A stretch of DNA of 64,000 nucleotides from Candidatus Gastranaerophilales bacterium (GTDB lineage: Bacteria > Cyanobacteriota > Vampirovibrionia > Gastranaerophilales > Gastranaerophilaceae): assembly GCA_944324315.1 (NCBI GenBank), contig CALUVW010000007.1:1-64000 (forward strand), given 5' to 3'. Below the pieces are notes generated by a model. The model was not told the origin of the DNA, did not search any database, and worked only from the letters and a program-made list of their open reading frames with translations. The number at the start of each line of letters is the position of its first letter. Within the stretch, counting starts at the first letter, position 1. Shown piece after piece: positions 49,270 through 53,238 of the stretch. A program made the translations under genes and the position numbers.

Positions 49270-49304
49270 AAAAAAGAGTTCCGAAATTTTCGGAACTCTT
49301 TTTT
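49270..49304. terminator. strong bidirectional terminator after rpsG
   Basis: A perfect 16-bp stem AAAAAAGAGTTCCGAA/TTCGGAACTCTTTTTT with a 3-nt loop between convergent genes. Confidence 0.88.
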
Positions 49305-49623
49305 ATATTAAGCTTTTTACAACTAAATCAACAGTTTGAAGTTTTGAATAATTATTTTTTATTAAATCCAAATTTTTAAGAATAGAAGAATGCAATTTTT
49401 CGTTATCATTTTTATCTTGTGTTTCAAACAGCTCAGATGCTGTAACATTTAACACAGAAGCTAATTTCTCTAGAGTTTTAGCTGATACAAAACCTTTTCC
49501 TGTCTCAACAAGACTTAGCGATTTAATTTCTAAACCAATAAGCTCAGCGAGAGCATCTTGCTTTAAAATAGATAAAAAAATAGGATTTACACTTGCTGAA
49601 GTGTTATTAACATTGGGCGTCAT
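49303..49623 (-). CDS. XRE-family helix-turn-helix protein, apparently N-terminally truncated
   Basis: The protein has an XRE/Cro HTH core: KQDALAELIGLEIKSLSLVE (helices 2 and 3) and KTLEKLASVLNVTASELFE. The first helix, normally about 20 residues of the form IKxLRxxKGLxQ, is missing. Its place is taken by a non-HTH sequence (MTPNVNNTSASVNPIF) that is simply the antisense of the prepilin start. This suggests a deletion junction near 49560-49580. A C-terminal helical tail of about 45 residues follows. Whether it is still made is unclear; no convincing ribosome binding site is seen. Confidence 0.6.
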   Translation of the reverse strand: MTPNVNNTSASVNPIFLSILKQDALAELIGLEIKSLSLVETGKGFVSAKTLEKLASVLNVTASELFETQDKNDNEKLHSSILKNLDLIKNNYSKLQTVDLVVKSLI

Positions 49624-50191
49624 AGGAGTAGTTGCAGCAATAACAATTCCAACACTAATTTCTAATTATCAAAAAAAAGTTATATCAGTAAGTTTAAAAA
49701 AGGCTTATGCCACGATATCAAACGGATTTCGATTATCAGAAGTTAATAACGGACCATATTCCGAATGGCCGCAAGGATCGTTGCTTGATTATGATACATT
49801 TTGGAATGTATATATAAATCCATATTTTACGGGAAGTAAAATATGCAGCACTATGACAAAGGGATGTGGTTATAATTCTGAATCACCAGAATTTAGGAAA
49901 CAGTGGAGCGGAGCGCTCTGGAATTGTGCAACGGGAGCATCTGAATTATTATTTCAGCTTGCTGACGGCACAGTTATTCTTTATCCGAAATTTACAAATG
50001 GCCCTAACGGAGAAATTTGGTATTCATATATATTATTTGTTGATGTTAACGGGCCTAAAGGACCTAATACATATTGTAAAGATGTTTTTCCTTTTAATAG
50101 AGGTAATGGCAAACTAGAACCTATTGAATGCACTTTAACAATAGTAGAAAATGGCTGGGAATTTCCTTATGACTATCCATATCGCATTTAA
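49579..50191 (+). CDS. type IV prepilin-like protein with missing 5' end
   Basis: The frame contains KIGFTLAEVLLTLGVIGVV (processing site and hydrophobic helix), LISNYQKKVISVSLKKAYATI, DVNGPKGPNTYCKD and the C-terminal LTIVENGWEFPYDYP, all of which match the other two prepilins in this window. No ATG with a ribosome binding site precedes the KIGFTLAEV segment: upstream, the frame runs open into the antisense of the HTH gene. The first standard start is a GTG at 49601, which would remove the processing motif. I give the coordinates from the KIGF segment. It is probably a 5'-truncated pilin gene. Its stop shares TTAA with the convergent downstream gene. Confidence 0.65.
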
Positions 50192-51774
50192 TATATATCA
50201 AGATTTTTTAGATCATCTTTGGGAGTTGTAATTTCTCTAATACCGTATAATTTATTAAAACCTTTTAAAACTGCCGGATTTATAATTAATGGCGGACAGT
50301 CTGATAAAAATAGATTTTTAGCACCACTGTTTTTTAAATAAATTATATTTGAAAGTGAATTAACATCACATTTTGTAAGGAAAAAGACTAATTTATCAGA
50401 TGTAATTGAAAATTTTTGTATTATCTTTTGCATTATGTTATACAATTGCGGATAATCATTTCCGATATTTATAGCAAGAACGTTATCTTTATCCGGATTA
50501 TAAGAAAATGTGATTGCAAATGTATCTTGCGGCATTAATTCAAAAAATTTTTCAAAATAGTCCTTTTGTTTTAATGATAAATTTGAAAAGCCAATTATAA
50601 AGACTTTCTTATAGTCGCCAGAAAATATGTCATCAAGTTTTTCATTGAGAACATCAGGATTATAACCAACAATTTCCGAATTTCGCTCCTGTCCTTTTGC
50701 AAAACCTTTTGCCTGTATTGCAGAATCAATAAGCGGTTGAAAATTATCATTTTCAATTTTCACGACGCCTTGAGGAGAAATTTCGTCAGTTGTAAATAAT
50801 CTGCCGCGATATAAATATTCAATATTTTGTGCTTCGTTTTTTGTCAAAAGAATTGCACCTGGAAAAGTTGCAAAATCAAGAATTGTTGTTAAAACGCCGC
50901 TCCCGTATTGACCTTTTAGATTTTTATATTTAGAAAAATATTCAAAAGCATGCGCAATTAGTAAATAACCGTTTGTATAGACGTCAATATCTTTTCCTTC
51001 AAGAAAATTTAGTAATTTATCAAGATCATTAAGATTTGAACCTGAGACAAGTATTGCTTTGTGAGGTCGTGTTGAAAATGAAACTTCCGTTTCTTTTATA
51101 TTTCCAAAATGTTGGTTTTGTAAATAGTATAACTGTTTTAAAAGTTCAACGTCACATTCAGCTAAAATGCCTATTTGTTCTTTTAATTCCTGAGAATTTA
51201 TCCTTTTTGAATTAAAAATATCAAGTGCAGTGAATAACGTATTAGTTATTTTCTCATTGTCAACTCCATAATCATAAAGATTAATCAGACTCACACAAAC
51301 ACTTTTAGCAACTGATGAAAGAATTTCCAAAAGAAACTTTTCATTTTTATTTACTTTATTATATTTTGAAAGAAATTCTTTATTCCCTCTTTTAAGGATA
51401 GAAGAGAGATTAGTTCTGGGAGAAAATTTGATTATATTTTTTAGAAACCTGCATGATAAATTATTATCTTTGCAGTATTTATGGTACTCATTTTTGACCT
51501 TTATTAAATTATTATATTCCTTTGAAAACGCATTTAAAACCTGTGCTTCCGATAAATCTTTTGCAGCATCAATAAGAGCAATCTCTGATATAATCTGATG
51601 CTCTATTTCTTCAAATCTTATATCAGCATCTCTAAGCCTAACAATATAAAAAATAATTTGTCTGAGCAGTGTAAACATAACTTCACGCATAGATGACACG
51701 CTAGGAGAAACAGAACATGCCCCGCGTGAAATACAATCATTATATTCAAAGTTTATCGAAGAATTATAAAACAT
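50188..51774 (-). CDS. degenerate hybrid-cluster-protein (HCP/prismane) homologue lacking cluster ligands
   Basis: The 528-residue protein aligns end to end with hybrid cluster proteins. The N-terminus MFYNSSINFEYNDCISRGAC corresponds to the MFC-x2-C...C...GxCGK motif but keeps only the last two of four cysteines. The core ILVSGSNLNDLDKLL, IDVYTNGYLLIAHAF, GQYGSGV, FPGAILLTKNE, LFTTDEISPQGVV is unmistakable. By my alignment with the Desulfovibrio enzyme, every hybrid-cluster ligand is changed: His244 to Asn, Glu268 to Asp, Cys312 to Glu, Cys406 to Ser, Cys434 to Tyr, Cys459 to Asp, Glu494 to Asp. It should therefore not hold the 4Fe-2O-2S cluster. It lies 2 bp after a glutaredoxin gene. Confidence 0.75.
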   Translation of the reverse strand: MFYNSSINFEYNDCISRGACSVSPSVSSMREVMFTLLRQIIFYIVRLRDADIRFEEIEHQIISEIALIDAAKDLSEAQVLNAFSKEYNNLIKVKNEYHKYCKDNNLSCRFLKNIIKFSPRTNLSSILKRGNKEFLSKYNKVNKNEKFLLEILSSVAKSVCVSLINLYDYGVDNEKITNTLFTALDIFNSKRINSQELKEQIGILAECDVELLKQLYYLQNQHFGNIKETEVSFSTRPHKAILVSGSNLNDLDKLLNFLEGKDIDVYTNGYLLIAHAFEYFSKYKNLKGQYGSGVLTTILDFATFPGAILLTKNEAQNIEYLYRGRLFTTDEISPQGVVKIENDNFQPLIDSAIQAKGFAKGQERNSEIVGYNPDVLNEKLDDIFSGDYKKVFIIGFSNLSLKQKDYFEKFFELMPQDTFAITFSYNPDKDNVLAINIGNDYPQLYNIMQKIIQKFSITSDKLVFFLTKCDVNSLSNIIYLKNSGAKNLFLSDCPPLIINPAVLKGFNKLYGIREITTPKDDLKNLDIY

Positions 51775-51776
51775 GG

Positions 51777-52007
51777 CTACACCTTACTTTTTAAATAGTT
51801 AATAATGTCATCAGATTCATACATTTTTGTGTTATTATCATTGTCAACTAAAAATGGTACCTGAATTTTACCACCGAGACTTTCCAGTTCATCTCTATTT
51901 TCGGGATTACTAACATCTTTTTTATTAAATTTAATATCATAATTTTTGCAAAAATCTAACACTTTACGACAATAAGGACAAGTCTCCGATATATATAAAT
52001 CAATCAT
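51777..52007 (-). CDS. glutaredoxin-like protein (CPYC)
   Basis: A 76-residue single-domain glutaredoxin/NrdH-type protein with the dithiol active site TCPYCRKVLDF (residues 9-19), the cis-proline loop KIQVPFLVD and the C-terminal YESDDIINYLKSK. It should reduce disulfides or glutathionylated/nitrosylated thiols in the cytoplasm. AGGAG precedes the ATG. It is the first gene of a two-gene unit with the degenerate HCP homologue (2-bp gap), so the two products probably act together. Confidence 0.9.
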   Translation of the reverse strand: MIDLYISETCPYCRKVLDFCKNYDIKFNKKDVSNPENRDELESLGGKIQVPFLVDNDNNTKMYESDDIINYLKSKV

Positions 52008-52128
52008 AAATAATCTTTCTCCTTTCGTTTATATTTTATAAAGCTTCATAATAAATATAAATCGCCATACTATACAATAAAAAATTGCACAATTGCATAA
52101 CAATTGTTTTTATAATAAACTTTGAAAT

Positions 52129-53238
52129 ATGAAAAATATATTATTTATATTCGGTACGAGACCAGAAGTTATAAAATTAGCACCTGTAATATTAGAATTA
52201 AAAAAATATCCTGATAAATATAATGTTATAGTATGTAATACAGAACAACAAAAAGAACTTTCGAATCAGACTCTTGAGTATTTCGGCTTAAAAGCTGATA
52301 TAAACCTTGATTGTATGCGCCCTAACCAGTCTTTATTAGAGGTTCAGACAAGAATTTTATCTGCATTAGATAAAGTTTTCAATGAACACGCGATTGACGC
52401 TTCAATTGTTCAGGGAGATACGATGACTGTACTTTGCGGAGCATTAGCAAGTTTTTACAAAAAAATACCTGTATATCATGTTGAAGCTGGTTTACGCTCT
52501 TATGATATTTACGAACCATTTCCGGAAGAAATTATGCGTCAAATGACATCTAGAGTTGCACAGTTAAACTTCGCTCCCACAGAAAAAAACAGACAGGCGC
52601 TTTTAAAAGAAAATATCTCAGACGACAAAATTTTTGTTGTAGGTAATACTGTTATTGATGCGTTATTCTGTTTATCCCGCGAAACTTTAGAAAATGCAGC
52701 ACAATATTTTAAAGAAAATAATATTGATATCAATGAAAAATTAGTGTTGATAACCGCACATAGACGCGAAAACCATGGTGAAAGAATTAATAAAATTCTT
52801 GACGCTATAGAATATCTGGTAAAAAAATACAATGATCACACGTTTGTAATTCCTGTTCACCCTAACCCTAATGTTAAAAACAAAATATATGACAGATTAG
52901 AAAAATACTTAAATGTTAAGCTTCTTAAACCGTTAGATTATCCATATCTTGTTTATCTGATGAAGAATGCGAAATTAATTCTGACTGATTCAGGCGGCAT
53001 TCAAGAAGAAGCTCCGTCTTTTGGCTGCCCGACACTTGTTATGCGTTATGAAACCGAACGACAGGAAGGAATTGATGCGGGAGTTTCGGTACTTGTCGGC
53101 GCTGACACTGAAAAAATAATTTCACAAAGTGAAAGCATTCTTTCAAAAACAAGAGAAGAAACAAGATTGAAAGCTCAAAATCCCTATGGGGACGGCACTT
53201 CTGCAAAAAAAATAGAAGAAATAATTAGGCAATCATAA
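52129..53238 (+). CDS. wecB: UDP-N-acetylglucosamine 2-epimerase (non-hydrolysing)
   Basis: WecB converts UDP-GlcNAc to UDP-ManNAc for surface polysaccharide synthesis. The 369-residue protein has IFGTRPEVIKLAPVILEL, VQGDTMTVLCGALASFY, HVEAGLRSYDIYEPFPEE, ITAHRRENHGERI and LTDSGGIQEEAPSFG, all diagnostic. TATAAT lies 12 bp before the ATG and there is no Shine-Dalgarno sequence, so the leader is very short. A bidirectional terminator follows. Confidence 0.96.
   Translation: MKNILFIFGTRPEVIKLAPVILELKKYPDKYNVIVCNTEQQKELSNQTLEYFGLKADINLDCMRPNQSLLEVQTRILSALDKVFNEHAIDASIVQGDTMTVLCGALASFYKKIPVYHVEAGLRSYDIYEPFPEEIMRQMTSRVAQLNFAPTEKNRQALLKENISDDKIFVVGNTVIDALFCLSRETLENAAQYFKENNIDINEKLVLITAHRRENHGERINKILDAIEYLVKKYNDHTFVIPVHPNPNVKNKIYDRLEKYLNVKLLKPLDYPYLVYLMKNAKLILTDSGGIQEEAPSFGCPTLVMRYETERQEGIDAGVSVLVGADTEKIISQSESILSKTREETRLKAQNPYGDGTSAKKIEEIIRQS

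Follow-up and report, generated by a model that had tools for sequence, protein, structure and literature searches.

The analysed window, a stretch of 64,000 nucleotides from a Candidatus Gastranaerophilales genome, carries on its minus strand a gene pair made up of a 76-residue glutaredoxin with a CPYC active site (51777..52007, assigned from its open reading frame and PF00462) and a 528-residue homologue of the hybrid cluster protein (HCP) in which all seven hybrid-cluster ligands are missing (50188..51774, assigned from profile searches, alignment and a structural model). The reading frame of the HCP homologue begins 2 nt after that of the glutaredoxin ends. We refer to the homologue as HCPL, a label given here to a clade of ligand-less HCP homologues comprising 155 distinct sequences, whilst f1, f2, f3, g21 and similar terms are group codes for families and genera, not taxon names. 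A divergent intergenic region (52008..52128) separates the pair from a wecB-like UDP-GlcNAc 2-epimerase gene on the plus strand (52129-53238) and is the likely location of the promoter of the glutaredoxin-HCPL pair. Matches to promoter consensus sequences within 52008..52128 were no more frequent than expected by chance, and a terminator scan likewise performed no better than chance. At the other end of the pair, a pilin-like ORF (49601-50191, plus strand) is convergent with HCPL and overlaps its 3′ end by 4 bases, and the start of this ORF is itself overlapped by a small HTH-type ORF on the minus strand (49303-49623).

Profile searches placed the 528-residue protein within the HCP family, with a match to PF03063 (Prismane) at an E-value of 3.9e-31 and 108.7 bits, above the gathering cut-off of 27, and a score of 184.1 bits against TIGR01703 (hydroxylamine reductase), below the equivalog cut-off of 360.8. 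An AlphaFold model of HCPL based on an alignment of 29 relatives (mean pLDDT 85) found its best structural match in D. vulgaris HCP (1e1d; Z 32.1, 503 residues, rmsd 3.2), followed by class III HCPs (Z about 29) and then CODHs (Z about 16). The N-terminal 19-20 or so residues were predicted to be disordered, even with canonical HCPs added to the alignment. Since the best structural matches are HCPs, HCPL has the HCP fold over its whole length apart from residues 1-20, and the claim of the initial annotation that the HCP backbone is kept was borne out by both the PF03063 search and the superposition on 1e1d.

In comparison with class I HCPs (D. vulgaris 1e1d and M. thermolithotrophicus 8cnr), HCPL shares the overall fold and length, the core motifs SG..L..L, D/NVYT.G and FPG.ILLT, and the cubane cysteines C15 and C21 with class I spacing. 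Unlike class I HCPs, it lacks the hybrid-cluster ligands, the segment containing C459 and two of the cubane cysteines, carries three cysteines that are new relative to class I (C101, C469 and C493) and scores below the TIGR01703 equivalog cut-off. E. coli Hcp (class II), a NO reductase and protein S-nitrosylase, belongs to the same superfamily and is similarly encoded with a redox partner gene, although its partner is the NADH reductase Hcr rather than a glutaredoxin, and HCPL has neither the class II insertion nor the ligands for the cluster chemistry of E. coli Hcp. Class III HCPs and Ni,Fe-CODHs are also fold relatives of HCPL, but their metal clusters are kept, and HCPs and CODHs do not share one ligand set at the corresponding site (PMC10502027).

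The extent of ligand loss was determined by aligning the window protein with E. coli Hcp and with the canonical HCP of the same genome, with positions given in D. vulgaris numbering. None of the seven hybrid-cluster ligands (His, two Glu and four Cys) is present in the window HCPL: six are replaced (H244 by S, E268 by Y, C312 by E, C406 by S, C434 by Y and E494 by D) and C459 is deleted together with its segment. The cubane four-cysteine motif retains only C14 and C20, the first two cysteines being missing. The reading of the initial annotation, in which all seven ligands and two of the four N-terminal cysteines were described as substituted, therefore stands, with one of the seven lost by deletion. 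As the seven ligands are conserved in all HCP classes (PMC10502027), the HCPL lineage departs from every described class. Across the 155 distinct HCPL sequences, no ligand is kept in 114, one in 32 and two in 9, the segment holding C459 is missing from every family f1 sequence checked (133/133), and the E494 position is Asp in 101 of 133. Repeated alignments and the end-to-end structural match to HCP rule out a misalignment that hides intact ligands at shifted positions. A basal form from family f2 (L222 and L223, genomes G376 and G374, respectively) keeps counterparts of C406 and C434 only, with no cubane cysteine and no other hybrid-cluster ligand, and may be an intermediate stage or the outcome of ligands having been lost by a separate route. 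Shorter HCPL sequences of about 475-500 residues were also observed (L160-L165, L179 and L194-L199, from g21, g26, g36 and g3), in which the region around the former C406-C434 is reduced.

Alongside HCPL, the genome from which the window derives (G000, 1.88 Mb) encodes a second, canonical HCP on contig 1 with all eleven ligands, so that the two forms coexist, a point that the initial annotation had proposed to check. HCP-type matches were found in 182 of 191 family f1 genomes (157 of the 160 good genomes), with 72 of the 191 containing a match above the canonical cut-off. Ligand-less HCPL accounts for most of these matches by a wide margin, and a few f1 genomes contain the canonical form only (e.g. 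G055) or a fragment. HCPL is present in nearly all sampled family f1 genomes and is more widely kept than canonical HCP. In the small sister family f2, the basal HCPL keeping two of the seven ligands was detected in two genomes and canonical HCP in another, and a search with the A1 profile of five genomes from family f3, which belongs to the same class, was empty. Among the matches listed, the named relatives of HCPL are Gastranaerophilales or Melainabacteria MAGs, one of them deposited as Fusobacterium sp. CAG:439; none of the 80 matches listed fell beyond Gastranaerophilales, although the search patterns were narrow and HCPL may occur in other phyla.

Maximum-likelihood phylogenetic analysis recovered HCPL as one clade with a support of 100, apart from the canonical HCPs included, and the branching inside HCPL is less certain because the branches are long. 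Omega (dN/dS) ranged from 0.04 to 0.27 between pairs of close relatives; HCPL is therefore under purifying selection. Tandem, nearly contiguous copies of HCPL occur in g15 (two copies, L144 and L145) and g11 (three copies, L146), and cysteine patterns differ between the copies. HCPL is highly unlikely to be a pseudogene in decay, a product of sequencing or assembly error, or a canonical HCP whose intact ligands were misaligned. Nothing speaks for these readings beyond the unusual ligand loss, and against them stand more than 150 distinct intact frames from dozens of genera, omega values far below 1, the single clade and the end-to-end structural match to HCP. The pseudogene reading in particular is ruled out by selection and conservation, in agreement with the initial annotation, which had argued against decay from the intact frame and had looked to relatives for broken copies; the gene is intact in these relatives.

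Five cysteines of the window HCPL, all encoded on the minus strand, are invariant in its close relatives. C14 (51733..51735) and C20 (51715..51717) are the cubane-motif remnants and change together, C101 (51472..51474) is nearly invariant in HCPL, C469 (50368..50370) is new and adjoins the former ligand position E494, and C493 (50296..50298), also new, follows the next strand; C101, C469 and C493, which the initial annotation did not mention, are absent from canonical HCPs. Joint loss of C469 and C493 was detected in 9 of 154 HCPL sequences and single loss in none, the sole apparent exception (L053) lying at a contig end. The two residues changed jointly in all six independent tree pairs (sign test, p 0.031). 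Among 820 pairs of columns of similar conservation, C469/C493 ranked first for co-change, which was perfect, and C14/C20 ranked second, in a ranking that ignores the relatedness for which the tree-based sign test accounts. C14 and C20 were lost together in a clade retaining C101, C469 and C493, whilst C469/C493 were lost in lineages retaining C14/C20. Because these losses are separate, the cysteines behave as two pairs and not as a four-ligand site, which disfavours one rebuilt four-cysteine cluster site.

AlphaFold models of HCPL contain a strand at residues 462-466, a helix at 471-482 and a second strand at 487-490, placing C469 and C493 each three residues past a strand end within one beta-alpha-beta unit. 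On this geometry the two cysteines would be close enough for a disulfide. Their co-change and the strand order together suggest that they may form a reversible disulfide, although two residues that jointly bind a metal would be expected to co-change in the same way. C469/C493 were kept in 93 of the 96 loci with an adjacent glutaredoxin versus 52 of the 59 without, with no clear correlation between the cysteine pair and glutaredoxin adjacency across the 155 loci.

The glutaredoxin carries its CPYC active site at residues 10-13 (51969..51980, minus strand), in addition to a QVP cis-proline motif and an ES-type glutathione motif. It matched PF00462 with 36.3 bits (cut-off 22.9) and was the only PF00462 match in the genome. 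The CPYC, VP cis-proline and ES motifs liken it to PF00462 and PF13417 (GST_N-like) glutaredoxins, but it falls below every NCBIfam equivalog cut-off and, unlike known glutaredoxins, its type stands ahead of an HCP homologue in many genomes. Within 88 paired copies, the cis-proline VP at residues 50-51 is nearly invariant and the active site is mostly CPYC, with CPYS in 17.

In 96 of 155 loci, a glutaredoxin gene directly precedes HCPL on the same strand; 82 of these loci contained the type found in the window (type I), and 14 loci from a separate clade contained a Grx3-like type. About 40% of HCPL loci (59/155), spanning many genera, had no adjacent glutaredoxin, a class in which a few loci may be truncated by the end of a contig. 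Type I pairings are likely to reflect few events, because the gene order wecB-grx-HCPL-rpsG-rpsL is mostly shared among them. In members of the Grx3-like set, HCPL lies behind yebC, a TPR gene and the glutaredoxin, and in g21, g26 and g36 a glutaredoxin of this kind occupies the equivalent place with no HCPL at that site. The pairing of glutaredoxin with HCPL thus arose on no fewer than two occasions.

All six of the HCPL-less genomes examined retained the glutaredoxin, ruling out its strict dependence on HCPL. The glutaredoxin therefore has a role of its own, and it is HCPL that would depend on the glutaredoxin, if the two interact at all. Searches of these six genomes for HCPL with the A1 profile, the window protein and A2 (which lacked a dedicated positive control) were all empty. 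G288 (L245), G160 (L247) and G367 (L250) have wecB-grx-rpsG-rpsL at this locus: HCPL is cleanly absent, and nothing between the glutaredoxin and rpsG could be recognised as a convincing remnant of it. The coupling of an HCP-like protein to a CPYC glutaredoxin described in the initial annotation thus recurs in relatives, but it is looser than was implied, given the many unpaired genera and the persistence of the glutaredoxin where HCPL is lost. Genes for glutathione synthesis were found throughout the 33 Gastranaerophilales genomes, including that of the window, with a GCS2 glutamate-cysteine ligase (GshA-type) in 33 and GshB in 32; glutathione is therefore very likely made.

We consider it quite possible, if a little short of probable, that HCPL is a repurposed HCP scaffold, a dithiol protein that is a client of the glutathione/glutaredoxin system. 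More tentatively, the emptied hybrid-cluster pocket may have turned into a dithiol active site run on glutathione and glutaredoxin, serving as a thiol oxidoreductase or as a redox or nitrosative sensor. In this lineage, the HCP fold has been kept, the hybrid-cluster ligands have been lost, one of them by deletion of the short stretch that held it, and C14/C20 and C469/C493 are each maintained as a unit. C469 and C493 are predicted to lie at the C-terminal ends of consecutive parallel strands of a Rossmann-like domain, in the emptied cluster pocket, where they could form a reversible disulfide or dithiol, and C14/C20 may form a second disulfide or dithiol in the flexible N-terminus. The thiols of HCPL could then sense, bind or transfer oxidised thiols (disulfide, glutathionylated or possibly nitrosated) and would be returned to the reduced state by glutathione, with the co-encoded glutaredoxin as intermediary. 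HCPL would accordingly work in the manner of a redox switch or of a thiol oxidoreductase that glutaredoxin reduces, rather than as a hydroxylamine or NO reductase. The presence of the glutathione genes makes the handling of nitrosated or glutathionylated thiols, as put forward in the initial annotation, plausible.

The main rival to a thiol-redox role is that HCPL binds a different metal site, either an Fe-S cluster or a mononuclear metal, through remaining or new cysteines (C14, C20, C101, C469 and C493) and acidic residues such as D470, and that the glutaredoxin either carries Fe-S clusters or acts as a reductant. In favour of such a site are the retention of two cubane cysteines in most HCPL sequences, the new cysteines near the old cluster site and the predominance of Asp at the E494 position (101/133), and glutaredoxins with CPYC or CPYS can, as a family, carry [2Fe-2S] clusters. 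We nevertheless regard this explanation as somewhat unlikely, as C14/C20 are lost where C101, C469 and C493 stay and C469/C493 are lost where C14/C20 stay; the predicted disorder of the N-terminal 19 residues also speaks against it, albeit weakly, since AlphaFold does not model metals. The second rival holds that HCPL is a pseudoenzyme scaffold with a protein-protein interaction or regulatory role, its cysteines forming only structural disulfides and its closeness to the glutaredoxin being in part inherited gene order. Such a purely scaffolding role agrees with the inherited wecB-grx-HCPL-rpsG-rpsL order of most type I pairings, with the lack of pairing in many genera and with the absence of HCPL where the glutaredoxin is kept. 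It appears unlikely, however, given that, in another clade, HCPL has come to adjoin a second type of glutaredoxin at a site that is HCPL-free in g21, g26 and g36, and that structural disulfides are uncommon in the reducing cytoplasm.

To our knowledge, what HCPs do has been under dispute for decades, with the cluster always taken as the seat of their function. The conservation of an HCP lineage that lacks cluster ligands suggests a selectable role for the scaffold independent of the cluster, and HCPL offers a natural control for telling thiol-based from cluster-based chemistry, including S-nitrosylation. Within the full text of 5.39 million open articles, we found none naming both the hybrid cluster protein and Gastranaerophilales. 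Annotation by PF03063 in Gastranaerophilales genomes can report a hydroxylamine reductase that is absent. The family f1 Gastranaerophilales are common gut bacteria that have been the subject of few functional studies, and HCPL is almost universal amongst those sampled.
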